A DNA stretch of 54,253 nt from the IMG/VR virus record IMGVR_UViG_3300037258_001211, positions 1 to 54,253 of that record; one strand, written 5' to 3'. Shown one piece after another: positions 3,151 to 54,253 of this stretch. Numbering within the stretch: position 1 is the stretch's first letter; the number at the start of each line of letters is the position of its first letter. Position numbers and translations under genes: made by a program. The notes under the pieces were generated by a model. That model did not search any database, was not told the DNA's origin, and saw only the letters and a list, made by a program, of their open reading frames with translations. The stretch is from a virus.

Positions 3151-3237
3151 GCCCGCTTGGCGGAACTGGCATACGCGACAGGCTTAAACCCTGCTGCCCC
3201 TCGGGGATTCTCGGTTCAAATCCGAGAGCGGGCCCCA
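3151..3237 (+). tRNA. tRNA-Leu(UAA), class II, with encoded CCA
   Basis: Full cloverleaf by eye: acceptor GCCCGCT (3151-3157) pairs perfectly with AGCGGGC (3227-3233); D arm GCG/CGC with GG in the loop; anticodon stem with loop CTTAAAC, anticodon TAA at 3185-3187; long variable arm with CCCC/GGGG (3197-3206), which marks class II; T stem CTCGG/CCGAG with loop TTCAAAT; CCA encoded at 3235-3237. UAA reads UUA leucine codons, rare in high-GC hosts. Odd points: base 73 is C (3234), where bacterial tRNA-Leu has A, and the outermost anticodon-stem pair is A-C. It lies antisense in a gap of the late operon. Confidence 0.85.
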
Positions 3238-4962: not shown

Positions 4963-7314
4963 TCAAGGAACATTAGCTATAGTGGCGGCCCATTTGACAG
5001 TTGCCGTACTCGCGGCGCTAGATGAAGGGACCACCTTTATCGACCAAGTATCGCCCGCCGCAAAATTCACCGAACCACTTCCGACGCCAGTTGCATTGGT
5101 TCCCGAAATGGTACACGTCATTGATTGATCCGCATTTCCTTTTGTCATCGTAAGCGTGATCGTCTGTCCGGCGCCGGGAGCGGTCGGGGTGCTACAACCG
5201 AAATTACTCATCCGCGACGGTATGGCAATGTTGGCGTTCGTCAAACCCTGAGAAGCATTGCTGATAGCGCCGACTCCGACGAACAACGTTCCGCCACCCC
5301 CAACCACAGCGGCGGCGGTATTGCCTCCGATCGAGGTCCGGTTTGGATAGATCGTGTTTGAGGCGCTGTCGCTCAGATTAACGGTATTGCCTGACCACAC
5401 ATTCGGCCCGATTGTCCAGCCCGTTGCACTCGACCCCAGCGTGACGCCCGCCGCAAGAGAGAGAAATTCGTTTCCCTGAATAATGCCGGTGCCTGCGTTC
5501 TGATCAATCAGAATGCCGGTGCCGTCACCCGGTGTCGGCGATGTGCTGAAGTTGTTGTTGTTGAAAACGAAGTGGCTCGCGTTCGACGAATTTACGTGGA
5601 TGCCCACATTACCAGATTGAATGACATCGAACTCGTTTCCGCTGACGATCATGCCGCCAATCAAACCGGTCACGAGGATAGAGTCGCCGGTATTGAGGCC
5701 GAATTCGTTATTGCTGATATTGAGGGCCGTGCCACCGGCACTGCCGTTGACAATAACGCTAGTCAACACCTCATCCAGGGCGGAATTAACGATCTTTACA
5801 CCTTGCACATAACTACCGTAGATGATGCCGTAACGTCCTCCAATTACACGGACGCCGTTGAAATCATGATCAACGGACTGAGATGCTGACGACAAACCCG
5901 CGAGGGAAAAGCCGTCACCATTTGAACCTGTGGTGCCCTGGAATATCGTCACTCCGTCATAGGCTATGTCGGATATTCCCTGCTCGGCAAAGGCTGTCGT
6001 CCAGTAATCAGTGGTTCCCGAGCCATCTCCACCACGGAACGTGACGTTCGTAAGGGATGTTTGCGCCGACCCGGCTTCATTGCCGACGCTGGTGTTGAGT
6101 TGGACCAGCGAAAGGCCCGTGCCGCCGCCTGCGTTGTTGGTTTTGAACGTCAGGTCATTGTTTGTGAGGCTCGCGTGTTCGTCGGTATAGCTGAGTTGTA
6201 ACCCGCCGCTCGCCGCTGCCCACGCCAGTATCGAAACATCTTGCCCGGCTCCCGACAGGTGAAACGAGGTGGCGGAGGGGATAGTGTTCGTGACCTGAGA
6301 AGTCAGCTTGAACACACCGGCGGGGACGAAGACCCAATTCCTACCCGACGCCAAGCTCGCGGTGATCGCATTGCTGATCGCGGTAGTGTCGTCAGTCGAA
6401 CCGTCCGGAACCGCGCCATATTGACGGATATCGTCATAATGACCCTGCGGGACCGCTTTCCACGAATTGCCATCGCTCGCGTCGACACAAGAACCGCCAT
6501 CATCGACCATGCCGTTATCGGAGCAGGTACCGCTTTGCACGATAAAGAACAACGGACCCGCGTGGTTACCATCCGCGAAGTCATCCCGCCAGACGCCATT
6601 TGGATACGTCAGCGTCGAGGCGAGCGCGAGTGCTGCGTTGGTCGCGACGTGGGGCGTGATATTGCTGTTGCCGCTCGTCGTCACCCCCGCGATCGCACCG
6701 CCAGTAATGGCTACCGCGCTCGCGTCCTGTGTCGCGATGGAGCCGAGCCCGATATCGGTGCGGAACTGCGATGCTGTCGTAGTCGAGCCAAGCGCGAAGG
6801 TGGTTGACCCCAGCGTGAACGAGGGCAATACACCGCTATCCGTCAGCAATTTGCCACTCGTCGCGCCGAAGAGCGGAAGATGCCCGGTTACCGCGCTATC
6901 TGGCCCGATCACGTCTCCGAAGCCAGGGCCGGGAAACGGATAGGTCGTGCCGTTCACGCGGACATGCAGAGCCTTGTCCAGAAGACCCCCATAGCTGTCG
7001 AGCGTGATGAGACCGTTGCCGCTGCTGTCGTGACCGAGGCACAGCGCGTTGTACTGGCTTCCCGTGTTTACCGTGTTGAAGCACTGGCCGAGCGCCAGGT
7101 TGTCTTGCACCGCAAAGGGATTGAGACCCCGGCCGAGCGGATCGCCCAGAAGACCGCCAACGTCCTGTATCTCCCCATCGCGCGTGATCTTCACCATGTC
7201 GTTAGGCGCGATCATCGTGCCGCGCTGATGGACAGGCGTCGATTGTGCCCAAGCGAGCGACGGGAGAAGCACCAGCACGGCAAGCGCGCGGAGCATCAAG
7301 GTCTTCGTGGTCAT
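4963..7314 (-). CDS. Tailspike 1, pectate-lyase-like beta-helix with Sec signal
   Basis: 783 aa from ATG 7314, chosen for CAGGAG upstream and because it begins a clean Sec signal peptide (MTTKTLMLRALAVLVLLPSLAWA, cut before QSTPV). Residues about 25-160 are an N-terminal module shared with tailspike 2 (PVHQRGT, NPFAVQDN, CLGHDSSGNGLITLDSYG, VRVNG). About residue 290 starts a Pectate_lyase_3-like repeat (IRQYGAVPDGSTDDTTAISN) followed by a long right-handed beta-helix rich in G, N, S and T. The role would be receptor binding or depolymerisation of host surface polysaccharide. A signal peptide on a virion protein is odd, since virions assemble in the cytoplasm. Confidence 0.8.
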   Translation of the reverse strand: MTTKTLMLRALAVLVLLPSLAWAQSTPVHQRGTMIAPNDMVKITRDGEIQDVGGLLGDPLGRGLNPFAVQDNLALGQCFNTVNTGSQYNALCLGHDSSGNGLITLDSYGGLLDKALHVRVNGTTYPFPGPGFGDVIGPDSAVTGHLPLFGATSGKLLTDSGVLPSFTLGSTTFALGSTTTASQFRTDIGLGSIATQDASAVAITGGAIAGVTTSGNSNITPHVATNAALALASTLTYPNGVWRDDFADGNHAGPLFFIVQSGTCSDNGMVDDGGSCVDASDGNSWKAVPQGHYDDIRQYGAVPDGSTDDTTAISNAITASLASGRNWVFVPAGVFKLTSQVTNTIPSATSFHLSGAGQDVSILAWAAASGGLQLSYTDEHASLTNNDLTFKTNNAGGGTGLSLVQLNTSVGNEAGSAQTSLTNVTFRGGDGSGTTDYWTTAFAEQGISDIAYDGVTIFQGTTGSNGDGFSLAGLSSASQSVDHDFNGVRVIGGRYGIIYGSYVQGVKIVNSALDEVLTSVIVNGSAGGTALNISNNEFGLNTGDSILVTGLIGGMIVSGNEFDVIQSGNVGIHVNSSNASHFVFNNNNFSTSPTPGDGTGILIDQNAGTGIIQGNEFLSLAAGVTLGSSATGWTIGPNVWSGNTVNLSDSASNTIYPNRTSIGGNTAAAVVGGGGTLFVGVGAISNASQGLTNANIAIPSRMSNFGCSTPTAPGAGQTITLTMTKGNADQSMTCTISGTNATGVGSGSVNFAAGDTWSIKVVPSSSAASTATVKWAATIANVP

Positions 7315-37362: not shown

Positions 37363-38073
37363 TCAGCCCAACCCGATGATCAGTGGAGCGGCCCCGATGG
37401 GTTGCGCATCGCTCACGCCCCTGGGAAGAGGTTCGTCCAATGGACGGGCCGCATTAGGCTTGGGATATGGAAATTCCTTGAGGCCAAGGCGCCGAGCGCG
37501 CGAACGCCCTGCCACCACAAGCGGACGCCAATACAAATGTTTGCCATCATCAAAATGAGGATCAATGACATGACCAGGCAGGATTTGGCGCAGCTTATCG
37601 GGGCTTTGTGTTCCCCACTTAGAGTTGCAGGATCGGCCCGGCTTGAAGACCCCATTAACCGTAACGCCATCCATGCGCCGATCCCGGCACCCGGAATAAT
37701 GCCAGCCGGCAGCCTGATAGACGCCGCCGTGATGCCCTTGTTGCCGATCAGCGAAACCAACCGCGATGAGCCAGCCGTGCTTTTTGAGGCCCCCGCAAGC
37801 AAAGGCAATGAGCCTGGACAACGGTTCTGTGAATTCAGCAACACGCACAAGGCGCGACAGCTCGATCACTTCTTCGGTCCAGCGGGTCGGCGGTATGCTG
37901 AATATTACCGCAGCGAACACATCGCCATAATCGCCGAAGAGGCCGCCCCCACCGCGCGCAACATAGCAGTGTTGAATGTTTACGGGCATTCTCCGCGAAT
38001 AATGGTGAGCGCGGATCAACGGCCACACTTCGTCCGGTTCAGCTCCCGTCAAAAAGTAGTTAGTCGCGCTCAA
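37363..38073 (-). CDS. Mom-like adenine modification protein
   Basis: 236 aa. The core fits the Mom family (GNAT-fold): RAHHYSRRMP near the start, VFAAVIFSIPP, EVIELSRLVRVAEFTEPLSRLIAFACGGLKK, VGFADRQQGHHGGVYQAAGWHYSG. Mu Mom converts adenine to N6-methylcarbamoyl adenine and protects DNA from restriction. ATGA-coupled to a 72-aa gene and followed upstream by ParB-like and NGQHR-type genes. The C-terminus from about 165 is extended and basic. Assignment from motif spacing; chemistry inferred from the family. Confidence 0.75.
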   Translation of the reverse strand: MSATNYFLTGAEPDEVWPLIRAHHYSRRMPVNIQHCYVARGGGGLFGDYGDVFAAVIFSIPPTRWTEEVIELSRLVRVAEFTEPLSRLIAFACGGLKKHGWLIAVGFADRQQGHHGGVYQAAGWHYSGCRDRRMDGVTVNGVFKPGRSCNSKWGTQSPDKLRQILPGHVIDPHFDDGKHLYWRPLVVAGRSRARRLGLKEFPYPKPNAARPLDEPLPRGVSDAQPIGAAPLIIGLG

Positions 38074-38288: not shown

Positions 38289-39089
38289 CTACTTCACCGC
38301 TCGCAAGGCGATGGTGTTGTCGGCGACGGGCATATCCACGCGGGACATGAAGATTTCACGCGCCTCCGGGCCGGCCTTGTTCCATGCGGCCATAAGGGAA
38401 TCCACTTGTCGCTCGACCGTCTCAAAATCATTCAGCGGATCACGGGCCGGCGGTTGCGGTCGCGGTGCGGAACGCGCGGCGGCGTGCTCTCGCAAGGAGC
38501 GCAACTGTTCTTCTTTGCTCGGCTGTTTGGCGGCCGTCAGAAGAGCGGATTGATTATCGTCGAGATGAAGGGCGCGGGCCTCGGCTTTGGCCTCCGGGTC
38601 CAGCGCCGCGATCTTGACCGCACGCTGCGCATCGGTGCGCTCGATACCCAGTTCGCGAGTTGCCGCGCTGAGGCCACCAGTGATACCTCGTCCACCCTTG
38701 GCGGAAACTTGCGCAACTTGCCCAGGTTTTGCCGCCGTCCGCTCGTCAATCAACCCGATCCATTCAGCGATGGCGGAGGCGCGCTGTTCGACGGTCAGCT
38801 CGGCACGGTGAAGGTTCTCGGCGATTTCCCACAGCCGACGATCGATAGCGGAGAGGCTCACCACCACGCAATCAATGCGATCCCAGCCGAGGAGCCGGGC
38901 GGCCTCCAATCGATGCCGCCCGGCCACCAGCCGTACTGTCTCGCCGTCATCGGGCGTCCAGACCGATATCGGGGTCTGGAGCCCAATGACACTCATCGAC
39001 TCGGCGAGCGTCTTAATCCGCTCAGCGTCCGCATCGCGACGAGCGCCCACGATCTCGATATCGCCAACTGCGATGCGGTGGAGTTCCAT
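38289..39089 (-). CDS. ParB-like N-domain protein
   Basis: 266 aa. ParB/Srx N-terminal domain at residues 1-90: IGLQTPISVW, VRLVAGRHRLEAARLLGWDRIDCVVV (the GxHRxxA box), then AENLHRAELTVEQRA. A helical middle follows; C-terminal third is charged. ParB folds bind CTP in partition proteins and act as nuclease or adaptor in others. Its coupling to the Mom-like gene suggests a role in DNA modification or recognition and not partition; there is no parA. Confidence 0.75.
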   Translation of the reverse strand: MELHRIAVGDIEIVGARRDADAERIKTLAESMSVIGLQTPISVWTPDDGETVRLVAGRHRLEAARLLGWDRIDCVVVSLSAIDRRLWEIAENLHRAELTVEQRASAIAEWIGLIDERTAAKPGQVAQVSAKGGRGITGGLSAATRELGIERTDAQRAVKIAALDPEAKAEARALHLDDNQSALLTAAKQPSKEEQLRSLREHAAARSAPRPQPPARDPLNDFETVERQVDSLMAAWNKAGPEAREIFMSRVDMPVADNTIALRAVK

Positions 39090-40669: not shown

Positions 40670-41122
40670 TCAGACGGCTACGCGCGCTTGGCGCATCGCG
40701 TCGACGGCCAACCGGTCGGCGCGCTCATTCTCGATATGGCCGTTGTGCCCGCGCACCCACTGGAACCGGACATGATGCTGACTTATCGCGCGGTCGAGGC
40801 GGTGCCAGAGATCAAGGTTGAGAGGCGGCTTGCTATCCCATGAGTTTCGCAGCCGCCAGCCCTGCTTGCGCCACTTCGGCATCCCAGAGGTCGCGCCATT
40901 CACGACGTATTTGCTGTCGCTGACGATGACGACGTTGCAGGACACCGAGAGGCTTTCAAGCGCCATGATCGGCCCCATCAGCTCCATGCGGTTGTTCGTC
41001 GTCGCCGGATCAGCGCCGCAAAGTTCTTGCTCGGTCGCGCCGAAGCGAATGATCGCGCCCCAGCCGCCGGGGCCGGGATTGGGCTCGCAAGCGCCATCGG
41101 TGAAGATTTCAACGAAGGCCAT
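40670..41122 (-). CDS. rnhA: Ribonuclease HI
   Basis: 150 aa, full length. All catalytic residues are in place: Asp9 in FTDGACEPNPG, Glu47 in TTNNRMEL, Asp69 in VIVSDSKYV, His126 and Asp136 in VRGHNGHIENERAD. It removes RNA from RNA-DNA hybrids, probably primers or R-loops at the phage origin. Overlaps the Cro-like stop by one base. Confidence 0.93.
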   Translation of the reverse strand: MAFVEIFTDGACEPNPGPGGWGAIIRFGATEQELCGADPATTNNRMELMGPIMALESLSVSCNVVIVSDSKYVVNGATSGMPKWRKQGWRLRNSWDSKPPLNLDLWHRLDRAISQHHVRFQWVRGHNGHIENERADRLAVDAMRQARVAV

Positions 41123-41334
41123 CAGGCGGCCTCTGGTGGCGATGCCCAGATATCCGGTCGCAATTCGTAGAGCGGGATGCCGAGCCCTTCGCTGATGCGC
41201 TTTGCGCGATCTACCGTGGGCACGCGGTCGCCGTTACGGCGCCACCAAATCACGGTCGAATGATCGACCCCCGCGACCTTGGCTAGCTCGCTTAGGCTTC
41301 CCGCGACTTCAATGATTTCATCAATGGTCTTCAT
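41122..41334 (-). CDS. Cro/YdaS-like regulator, first leftward gene
   Basis: 70 aa from ATG 41334. A compact HTH: GSLSELAKVAGVDHSTVIWWRRNGDRVPTVDRAKRISEGLGI, as in Cro and YdaS proteins. The -10 box ends 7 bases before the ATG, so the mRNA is predicted to be leaderless; no Shine-Dalgarno exists. It lies across the operators from the Xre repressor and would shut down the repressor gene on induction, as Cro does. Confidence 0.8.
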   Translation of the reverse strand: MKTIDEIIEVAGSLSELAKVAGVDHSTVIWWRRNGDRVPTVDRAKRISEGLGIPLYELRPDIWASPPEAA

Positions 41335-41341
41335 CCAAAGG

Positions 41342-41370
41342 ATGTTGGCATTGCCAACCCGTAAGGTCAA
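41342..41370 (-). promoter_or_regulatory. Leftward early promoter PL-like
   Basis: Minus strand TTGACC (41370-41365), 17-base spacer, CAACAT (41347-41342). Operator O1 lies in spacer and -10. The twin at 41861-41889 has the same spacer length, the same -10 and the same operator offset (6 bases from the -35). Confidence 0.75.
41344..41358. promoter_or_regulatory. Operator O1
   Basis: GTTGGCATTGCCAAC, perfect 7-1-7 palindrome. Best of four sites with consensus GTTGG-N5-CCAAC. Covers the leftward promoter. Confidence 0.8.
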
Positions 41371-41379
41371 GCCTAAAAT

Positions 41380-41394
41380 GTTGGGTACGCCAAA
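41380..41394. promoter_or_regulatory. Operator O2
   Basis: GTTGGGTACGCCAAA, one outer mismatch. Centre 36 bases from O1; lies just upstream of both the leftward -35 and the repressor -35, so a bound protein could activate the repressor promoter as lambda CI does at PRM. Confidence 0.7.
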
Positions 41395-41396
41395 CA

Positions 41397-41425
41397 CTGA
41401 CTTTGCGCGCCCGTGCGATTATGCT
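41397..41425 (+). promoter_or_regulatory. Repressor promoter PRM-like
   Basis: CTGACT (41397-41402), 17 bases, TATGCT (41420-41425), 3 bases before ATG 41429. Predicted start of transcription falls at or beyond the ATG, i.e. leaderless or nearly so. Weak -35 with an operator 2 bases upstream fits an activated promoter. Confidence 0.5.
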
Positions 41426-41428
41426 CGA

Positions 41429-41815
41429 ATGCAGGCACAGAAAACGGGCAGAGCCGAGCGCGCCCAGGGCGATCCTGTCTTGGGCGCGATGATTCGTGCA
41501 AAGCGAGAGGAATTAAAACTTTCGCAATCTAAACTGGGAGAGGCTGTAGGGAAGAGCCGATCACACGTCGCCAATATAGAAGCGGGACGAGACGGCGCGG
41601 GAGCACGGATGCTAGCAGACATGGCGAAGACGCTAGGACTATCGCTTGACCGGCTGATGAACAGCCAACCCGCCGGCACGCCGGGCACATTCACGGTCAC
41701 GGTGACCGAGGACGAGGCCGACCTTCTCATCGCTACCCGCGGCCATCCTGTCGACGAAATCAAATCGCTCGCCAAGATGCTGCTCCGCGGAAACCAGAGC
41801 CCGAAGCAAAGCTGA
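41429..41815 (+). CDS. Xre-family phage repressor (CI-like), no peptidase domain
   Basis: 128 aa from ATG 41429. Xre HTH at about residues 19-75: LGAMIRAKREELKLSQSKLGEAVGKSRSHVANIEAGRDGAGARMLADMAKTLGLSLDRL. The C-terminal 50 residues (TFTVTVTEDEADLLIATRGH...) are not an S24 peptidase, so RecA-driven self-cleavage is not expected. It sits between two operator pairs and most likely binds them. No Shine-Dalgarno. What relieves repression is unknown; the S24 protein at 53585 or the Cro-like protein are candidates. Confidence 0.8.
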   Translation: MQAQKTGRAERAQGDPVLGAMIRAKREELKLSQSKLGEAVGKSRSHVANIEAGRDGAGARMLADMAKTLGLSLDRLMNSQPAGTPGTFTVTVTEDEADLLIATRGHPVDEIKSLAKMLLRGNQSPKQS

Positions 41816-41837
41816 TCTACGCGACATTCTGACGCTG

Positions 41838-41852
41838 GTTGGGTTTCCCAAC
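41838..41852. promoter_or_regulatory. Operator O3
   Basis: GTTGGGTTTCCCAAC, perfect 6-bp arms with a 3-base centre. Centre 35 bases from O4, upstream of the rightward -35. Confidence 0.75.
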
Positions 41853-41860
41853 ATATTTCC

Positions 41861-41889
41861 TTGACGACAAACGTTGGGAATGCCAACAT
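41861..41889 (+). promoter_or_regulatory. Rightward early promoter PR-like
   Basis: TTGACG (41861-41866), 17 bases, CAACAT (41884-41889), with operator O4 in the spacer and -10. Mirror copy of the leftward promoter. Drives the 41925-52220 operon. Confidence 0.75.
41873..41887. promoter_or_regulatory. Operator O4
   Basis: GTTGGGAATGCCAAC, perfect 5-bp arms. Same placement in its promoter as O1 in the leftward promoter. Confidence 0.75.
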
Positions 41890-41924
41890 CCCCTCACGCC
41901 ATACAGGTGATGAGGGACGAGACG

Positions 41925-42152
41925 ATGGGCAAACGACCAACATTGAGTGACGCAATGGAAGCCGTCGCCCGGAATCTGCGGGAATTCGGCTATCCCGATG
42001 TCACCAGAACGATGATCCGTGAGATTTACGATCAATGGGTCACAGGCGAGCGCTATCCCGATTTGCCACACGGCATCATCGCGGGCTTCGCTGAGCGCCA
42101 GTTCGCGGACCATGCCGAACTGTTAGCGTCTTTAGCGGCGAGTACCGTCTGA
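41925..42152 (+). CDS. First rightward early protein
   Basis: 75 aa from ATG 41925 with GAGG 9 bases before. Helical: LSDAMEAVARNLREFGYPDVTRTMIREIYDQWVTG, then FAERQFADHAEL. I do not recognise it. Being first behind PR, it may be a regulator (position of lambda Cro or CII). ATG of the next gene overlaps its stop. Confidence 0.6.
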   Translation: MGKRPTLSDAMEAVARNLREFGYPDVTRTMIREIYDQWVTGERYPDLPHGIIAGFAERQFADHAELLASLAASTV

Positions 42153-53180: not shown

Positions 53181-53500
53181 CGCCCTCCATTAGGAACATA
53201 ACAAGAACATTGCGGACGCGAAAAGCGCCGCGTCACCCGCTCGAGCTTTTTCAGAAAGTCGTCTGGCGGCCGCCGCGCCCGATCTCCCTGCCGGCCGCCG
53301 ACCATCTTCGCCAGCGCCTCGGCCTCACGCTTCATCCGCCGCGCTTCCGCGCCGCCGTTCCGGATGTGGCACAGCGCGTGATGCACCGGGCAATACGGCG
53401 ATTCCGCCTGCCGCCCCGCCCCGCAGACCGCGCCCTCCTCTCCGATATAGCGGCACCCATCATGATCGTCCCACGTCCCGTTCAGCCCGGCGATATTCAC
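53177..53500 (-). CDS. Zinc-binding protein resembling GcrA C-terminus
   Basis: 107 aa. WDDHDGCRYIGEEGAVCGAGRQAESPYCPVHHALC has the C..C..YC..H layout of the GcrA C-terminal module; then a basic helix and CSC near the end. Transcribed from a good promoter at 53533-53560, divergent from the S24 repressor. Role unknown. Confidence 0.5.
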   Translation of the reverse strand: MNIAGLNGTWDDHDGCRYIGEEGAVCGAGRQAESPYCPVHHALCHIRNGGAEARRMKREAEALAKMVGGRQGDRARRPPDDFLKKLERVTRRFSRPQCSCYVPNGGR

Positions 53501-53532
53501 GCGCCGCCCCCTCTTGCGAATGTCGCACGAGG

Positions 53533-53560
53533 GTTATATGATCGGCTCTTGCCATGTCAA
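53533..53560 (-). promoter_or_regulatory. Leftward promoter of the flank operon
   Basis: Minus strand TTGACA (53560-53555), 16 bases, TATAAC (53538-53533): the best consensus promoter in the window. It overlaps the repressor promoter back to back. Confidence 0.7.
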
Positions 53561-53577
53561 CACGATAATTGCGATAT
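53549..53577 (+). promoter_or_regulatory. Promoter of the S24 repressor
   Basis: TTGCCA (53549-53554), 17 bases, CGATAT (53572-53577), 7 bases before ATG 53585: leaderless mRNA predicted. Confidence 0.5.
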
Positions 53578-53580
53578 TGA
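53557..53580. promoter_or_regulatory. Operator candidate for S24 repressor
   Basis: 24-bp imperfect dyad centred on AATT, outer arms TCAA/TTGA, covering parts of both divergent promoters. Autoregulation by the S24 protein is inferred. Confidence 0.45.
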
Positions 53581-53584
53581 GAAT

Positions 53585-54253
53585 ATGGACGCTGCATGGC
53601 TACATCAGGCGCTGCAACGCGCCGGCGCCTCGCAGGCCGATCTGGCGCGGCATCTGGGCCTCGCCGCCTCGGCGATTTCGCGCATGACCAGCGGCGAGCG
53701 CCAGGTCAAGGCGATCGAGGTGCCGCATATCGCGACCTTCCTCGGCGTCTCGCAGGAGGAGGTGCTGCGCCACGCCCTCACCGACGGCGCCACCGCCCCC
53801 GCCGAACCCGCCCGCCGCGGCCGCCCGCCCCGCTCGGCCTCGCCGATCGCCGCGGCCCCGCCCCCCGGCGGCGAACTCGTCCCGATCAAAAGCGCCGGGC
53901 GCGGCGGTACCGACCAGCAGATGTTCCTCGAAGACGGCCCGATCGGCTACACCCCGCGCCCGGCGAATCTCAACGGCGTCCGCGACGCCTATGCGATCTA
54001 CATGATCGGCGACTCGATGGAGCCGCGCTACGAGCAGGGCTGGCTCCTGCACGTCAACCCGTTCAAGCCCCCCACCCGCGGCCGCGACGTCGTCCTCTAC
54101 AAGACCAGCCAAGCGGTCCTCATCAAGCAATTCGTCGGCTGGCAGGGCGACCACCTCGTCCTGCGCCAGCTCAACCCCGACGAAATCCTCCGCATCCCCC
54201 GCGCCGAGATCGTCGAGTGCCATCTGATCGTCGGCGTGGATCAGGAGGGATAA
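53585..54253 (+). CDS. S24 (LexA/CI-like) repressor
   Basis: 222 aa from ATG 53585. N-terminal HTH at about 5-60 (QRAGASQADLARHLGLAASAISRMTSG), Pro/Ala-rich linker, S24 peptidase from about 98: candidate Ala104-Gly105 cleavage site in KSAGRG, catalytic Ser144 in GDSMEP, Lys181 in VLIKQF. Such proteins cleave themselves on RecA activation, or act as silent peptidase-fold repressors. GC-rich like a host gene. It could be a host or neighbouring-prophage regulator, or give DNA-damage sensing that the phage Xre repressor lacks. The window ends at its stop. Confidence 0.85.
   Translation: MDAAWLHQALQRAGASQADLARHLGLAASAISRMTSGERQVKAIEVPHIATFLGVSQEEVLRHALTDGATAPAEPARRGRPPRSASPIAAAPPPGGELVPIKSAGRGGTDQQMFLEDGPIGYTPRPANLNGVRDAYAIYMIGDSMEPRYEQGWLLHVNPFKPPTRGRDVVLYKTSQAVLIKQFVGWQGDHLVLRQLNPDEILRIPRAEIVECHLIVGVDQEG

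Follow-up and report, generated by a model that had tools for sequence, protein, structure and literature searches.

The window, by which we mean the whole stretch of 54,253 nucleotides that was analysed (IMG/VR record IMGVR_UViG_3300037258_001211), carries divergent xre and cro genes, four 15-bp operators and two outward promoters, pR and pL, arranged as follows:

41122 to 41334, minus strand: gene of a Cro/YdaS-like lytic repressor, 70 aa, whose start codon lies 8 nt after the pR −10
41342 to 41347, minus strand: pR −10, CAACAT, 17-bp spacer, overlapping O1
41344 to 41358, strandless: operator O1, GTTGGCATTGCCAAC, exact GTTGG-N5-CCAAC, inside pR
41365 to 41370, minus strand: pR −35, TTGACC
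41380 to 41394, strandless: operator O2, GTTGGGTACGCCAAA, one mismatch, centre 42 bp before the xre start
41417 to 41422, plus strand: candidate pRM −10, GATTAT, found by eye; would give a leaderless xre mRNA
41429 to 41815, plus strand: gene of an Xre repressor, 128 aa, with an HTH and a short helical C-terminus and without S24 domain
41838 to 41852, strandless: operator O3, GTTGGGTTTCCCAAC, exact, upstream of the pL −35
41861 to 41866, plus strand: pL −35, TTGACG
41873 to 41887, strandless: operator O4, GTTGGGAATGCCAAC, exact, inside pL
41884 to 41889, plus strand: pL −10, CAACAT, 17-bp spacer, overlapping O4
41891 to 41896, plus strand: 5' arm of an inverted repeat, CCCTCA, in the pL discriminator; it ends with A41896, where pL +1 is predicted
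41911 to 41916, plus strand: 3' arm, TGAGGG, containing the Shine-Dalgarno (SD) sequence of the first early gene
41925 to 42152, plus strand: 75-aa gene that opens the pL operon, an orphan of no known family

The original prediction of four 15-bp operators in mirror-image pairs around an Xre gene was borne out, with three exact sites and one, O2, the weakest of the four, carrying one mismatch. As had been claimed, the operator starts 6 bases past the −35 hexamer in pR and pL alike, the spacer is 17 bp in both, and the start-to-start distances are 36 (O1 to O2) and 35 (O3 to O4). The shared −10, CAACAT, is indeed present at both promoters but is not independent evidence: operator and −10 overlap, the half-site itself ends in CAAC, and the identity is therefore partly forced. 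The supposedly lone Xre gene is flanked by operator pairs but has a neighbour, the cro gene, which starts 95 bp off on the opposite strand. The exact motif occurs three times in the 54 kb window, each time at the switch and nowhere outside it, against 0.06 expected (three or more in 0 of 100 shuffles). With two mismatches allowed the window holds 28 sites versus 20 by chance, so only near-perfect sites are meaningful.

HTH is the sole Pfam domain of the 128-aa Xre protein, in line with the prediction that the repressor lacks an S24 domain. The 70-aa Cro protein matched HTH_3 with 28.8 bits and YdaS_toxin with 26.7 bits (cut-off 30). Two features that define a lambda-type region are found in the window: xre and cro diverge with operators in between, and a second operator cluster lies at pL past xre. 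A third operator of the OR3 type over pRM is absent from the window, which has two operators per side. On the minus strand Cro is followed by RNase H and then by ParB-like, Mom-like, replication, terminase, connector and tail genes, and on the plus strand the 75-aa orphan is followed by an HNH nuclease, the ERF and YqaJ recombination genes and an integrase. As in lambda, therefore, pR points toward the genes for replication and late functions, and pL toward those for recombination and integration. The window showed no DNA similarity to sequenced phages, and terminal attachment repeats were looked for in it and not found. The gene of the Mom-like DNA modification protein (37363 to 38073, minus strand; phrog_1384, 1e-22) adjoins the ParB-like gene at 38289 to 39089. 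A tRNA-Leu gene with a TAA anticodon (3151 to 3237, plus strand) lies within the phage; its neighbours are a glycoside-hydrolase-like gene on one side and a methyltransferase gene on the other.

We scanned IMG/VR with two DNA patterns, TTGAC-N7-GTTGG-N5-CCAACAT and a double operator; such scans demand exact matches, so the class size they give is a lower bound. The double-operator and promoter patterns retrieved L017, L018/L026, L045, L046 and L051, and L017, L026, L045, L046 and L051 each have the order cro, operator pair, xre, operator pair, followed by an operon codirectional with xre. Altogether these pattern scans, of the kind that the original prediction had proposed for related prophages, uncovered the recurring layout in 14 other contigs. 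It is complete, with four operators, in 12 of them, namely the five just named with GTTGG half-sites, L059 with a near-GTTGG half-site, L060, L062, L065, L081 and L084 with GTGGG, and L079 with GTCGG; it is partial in two (L064 and L066). The Xre proteins of matching contigs are 24–34% identical, where measured. Together with GTAGG, four half-site types were found. A pattern combining a GTNGG half-site with an ATG 6–8 nt past the −10 matched 14 loci, of which 13 have a Cro-like ORF at the ATG; the ATG spacing is built into this pattern, which leaves the Cro content as the one independent outcome. A still looser pattern added eight loci, five of them with a Cro-like ORF.

In the GTAGG loci (L057, L063 and L078) the position of O2 differs. 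L063 and L078, where O2 lies about 50 bp from O1 and near the start codon, hold an S24-type repressor in the xre slot, the only loci in which this was seen, which indicates that S24 and non-S24 repressors have one cro-promoter design in common. L059 has a third operator (GTTGGCAAAGCCCAC, positions 5695–5709) that resembles OR3, with its centre 17 bp before the xre start; the other loci lack one. In L055, at a contig edge (positions 35–63), a promoter of the same operator-bearing form stands directly before an Xre-like rather than a Cro ORF.

Seven further loci (L052, L053, L054, L056, L080, L082 and L083) were judged from their context to be chance pattern matches. Citrobacter phage Chris1 (L047) shows mirror-image pL and pR but was set aside, as its operators differ, a terminator follows the repressor gene and its leaders carry ordinary SDs. 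Searches of IMG/VR with the Xre or Cro protein singly found nothing, and when the Xre alignment was broadened, none of it was conserved well enough to serve for scanning. Matches from a GTDB scan were rejected as mainly host ParB-like proteins with 20–24 residues matched. Sphingopyxis phage VSN-002, the nearest listed phage by ERF protein, has no such operators. The double-operator pattern had no match in 385 genomes from the class of Acidocella, nor had the cro-promoter pattern in the same 385 genomes and 150 of the Acidocella family; in a control the latter pattern recovered the known records.

In 12 of 16 loci the xre start follows the centre of O2 at 41–43 bp (41–42 bp in 10 of 12 loci, to which L079 with 41 and L081 with 43 were added later). 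No O2 at −42 was found in L064, L066, L084 and L085, and the annotated xre start is 67–70 bp from O2 in L064 and L084. In lambda, OR2 has its centre at −42 of pRM. By eye, the candidate pRM has no good −35, and there is no well-placed SD ahead of xre. Because O2 stands at the lambda OR2 distance and xre lacks a well-placed SD, a leaderless xre mRNA activated from O2 is the simplest reading. A consensus-like promoter directed toward xre, TTGCCA/17/TAAAAT (41351 to 41379, plus strand), overlaps O1 and has no counterpart by eye in the relatives; it could give xre an untranslated leader, against the leaderless reading. Across the first six loci the cro start codon is found at the 7th to 9th nucleotide past the pR −10, and the cro mRNA looks leaderless or nearly so.

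At the other arm, the bases just before the predicted pL +1 pair with the SD region of the first early gene in 14 of the 14 loci measured. The arms are CTCCCC/GGGGAG in L017, GCTCCC/GGGAGC in L046, AGCCTCATCA/TGATGAGGCT in L026, GCGGCATC/GATGCCGC in L045 and TCCCATCG/CGATGGGA in L051; the repeat is also present in L059, L060, L062, L064, L065 and L066, in L081 and L084, where it was read by eye, and as a shorter, 5-bp form in L079. The first six repeats were spotted by eye before testing, whereas the later loci were fetched by patterns blind to pL. The observed stem total was never reached in 5000 cross-pairings of 5' parts with the 3' parts of other loci, and of the window's ORF starts with an SD, only 6% have a stem of at least 6. 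The bases that pair with the SD precede, in most loci, the first A at position 7–9 past the −10, the likely +1, so an RNA started at pL would be without them. Predicted folding energies were −18 to −30 kcal/mol for read-through RNA, including the operator's own stem, and −4 to −15 kcal/mol for pL RNA.

We see about even odds that this repeat is a lock which silences read-through lysogenic mRNA and leaves pL mRNA translatable. Transcripts started upstream, such as the lysogenic xre mRNA, would fold and hide the SD of the pL gene; those started at pL would lack the 5' arm and hence be translated. A lysogen would in that case avoid leaking early lytic protein where the repressor transcript runs into the early operon. 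No strong terminator after xre was seen in the window. O3 was considered as a general xre terminator and discarded: the window's O3 scores terminator-like, but L026 is the sole locus with a clear T-run behind O3. IS10 and IS50 use a comparable fold-back, in which read-through mRNA hides the SD and promoter-initiated mRNA does not; in those elements it shields transposase expression against promoters outside, whereas in the phage the pL operon would be shielded against the transcript of its own repressor gene. We did not find such a pL inverted repeat described in the open-access literature. Against a lock, part of the stem would persist in the GTGGG loci in a pL transcript begun at position 8–9.

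A less probable but still plausible alternative is that the repeat forms a hairpin of the pL transcript itself, as a 5' stabiliser or antitermination element, or is a DNA site for another protein. All the loci measured do have the stem, mostly of 6–10 bp, right where the operon begins. Given the 17-bp spacer and starts at 7–9 nt, however, the SD-pairing bases would lie upstream of +1, and the same offset puts the cro starts at AUG, which supports the start-site estimate. Moreover, the SD each time falls within the 3' arm or directly next to it, though the downstream genes look unrelated by eye.

The original prediction held that a repressor without S24 domain must respond to an induction signal other than lambda's. 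This stands for direct self-cleavage only and not in general: the Gifsy repressors show no direct response to RecA-mediated cleavage but are under RecA-mediated control all the same (PMC10448788). LexA-type boxes (GTTC-N7-GTTC) number 3 in the window, against 1.6 by chance, and none is near the switch. Past the integrase, at the window's right end, the plus strand encodes an S24+HTH protein (53210 to 54253), and one could suppose that this protein keeps lysogeny and that Xre and Cro are accessory. Its HTH and Peptidase_S24 domains and its matches to phage repressor families favour that idea, which we nevertheless consider improbable. The gene adjoins no early promoter, and in the two GTAGG relatives with an S24 repressor that protein occupies the xre position, which in the window is filled by the 128-aa protein. 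Relatives at 33–47% identity occur in 14 of the 385 genomes from the class of Acidocella, as expected for a host gene, so the S24+HTH gene is probably flanking host DNA.

A recognition-helix residue of Xre sorts with the third base of the operator without exception in 19 of 19 loci, counts that are not phylogenetically independent: Lys goes with G (7/7), Gln with A (3/3), Asn, Ala or Thr with T (8/8) and Met with C (1/1). The mutual information over these 19 loci is 1.70 bits, a value as high being reached in none of 2000 permutations. The T and G operator labels switch about four times on the Xre tree, so shared descent alone is insufficient to explain the covariation, although that tree is poorly resolved. 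The sorting residue is the seventh of the aligned recognition-helix motif, N49 in the window protein, where it lies in a predicted helix (residues 44–51; blocks of mean pLDDT >90); from our own alignment we take it to correspond to Gln33 of 434 repressor and Lys32 of lambda Cro. The nearby tenth motif position also gave 0 of 2000 but with a lower score, and the seventh residue is the best, though not the sole, candidate for base reading. That a recognition-helix residue tracks the varying operator base implies that Xre would bind GTNGG-type sites. It is very unlikely that Cro alone binds the operators and Xre does not. The Cro recognition helices also differ by operator type (HH in GTGGG and KH in GTAGG loci), but such a reading leaves aside the 19 of 19 sorting of the Xre residue and the fixed distance from O2 to xre in most loci. 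That the four sites are chance palindromes, for which nothing speaks beyond the near-chance count at two mismatches, is virtually excluded by the excess of exact sites and was already refuted by the recurrence in unrelated contigs.

We conclude, with a probability of roughly 85%, that the region is a lambda-like immunity switch of a temperate phage; the proposed OL/OR arrangement around a repressor is upheld by both the recurrence and the covariation of Xre with the operator base. In the lysogen, Xre dimers would occupy O1/O2 and O3/O4 and block RNA polymerase at pR through O1, shutting off the operon on the cro, replication and late side, and at pL through O4, shutting off the recombination and early operon. 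From O2, centred at −42 if the xre mRNA starts at its AUG, Xre probably activates its own weak promoter. The operator pairs are about 0.5 kb apart, a distance that a repressor oligomer could bridge. Once Xre is lost, pR would fire and Cro would compete for the same sites, acting mainly by taking O2 and O1, as there is no separate operator over pRM. Each promoter may ration its own message, with cro and probably xre read from leaderless mRNAs and the SD of the first pL gene complementary to the discriminator. The full proposal, that in this phage class translation is coupled to the choice of promoter in each arm of the switch and that one repressor residue and one operator base set the immunity type, is tentative and in our estimate falls a little short of an even chance. 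If it is true, only transcripts from the cognate promoter would be translated, and lysogenic read-through would leak no lytic protein.

Like lambda CI/Cro, the window has the repressor gene between OR and OL, a divergent Cro, operators inside pR and pL and an OR2-like site at −42 of pRM. Unlike lambda, it has two operators on each side and lacks both an OR3 over pRM and an S24 domain, and its sites are 15 bp long and 35 bp apart versus 17 bp and about 24 bp in lambda. PaaR2 is, by size and domain content, a small repressor without S24. Lambda-like OL/OR switches without an S24 repressor are already known, namely DicA/DicC/dicBp in the cryptic prophage Qin (PMC10448788) and PaaR2/YdaS in CP-933P (PMC8630535). 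The gene order dicC-dicA-dicBp in E. coli K-12 is that of the window: a cro-like gene on the minus strand, a small non-S24 Xre gene and a pL-like promoter on the plus strand, with operators flanking the repressor gene on either side. In DicA (135 aa) the bond required for RecA-mediated cleavage is missing (PMC10448788). Qin differs from the window in having three operators per side (PMC10448788), a half-site that by eye is GTTAG instead of GTTGG, and a dicBp with a long leader and, by eye, no SD-pairing arm. The window's proteins fall far under the cut-offs of the corresponding models (Xre against DicA, 24.5 bits, cut-off 101; Cro against DicC, 20 bits, cut-off 130).

CP-933P combines its repressor, PaaR2, with a YdaS-type Cro and pR, pRM and pL, and unlike the window has three OR and three OL sites in addition to four inverted repeats of 18 bp; its published account does not cover the leader of the pL operon (PMC8630535). 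PaaR2, 15 kDa as a His-tagged protein, activates pRM, and its mRNA is leaderless by RACE (PMC8630535). The cI and cro mRNAs of the telomere phage PY54 are also leaderless by RACE, as proposed here, but PY54 has a single operator (PMC4488713). What sets the window apart from DicA/DicC and PaaR2/YdaS is thus two operators per side, the lack of an OR3 over pRM, the GTNGG family with its residue rule, and the pL repeat.

The non-S24 lambda-like switch, so far characterised mainly in defective prophages of E. coli, is thereby extended to environmental phages that form a recurring class and probably belong to Alphaproteobacteria. The four half-sites offer a natural set of immunity types with a directly testable one-residue reading rule. 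In one member, L051, a 284-aa ORF (positions 1097–1951), sulfotransferase-like by eye, lies between xre and OL, the place of rex in lambda.
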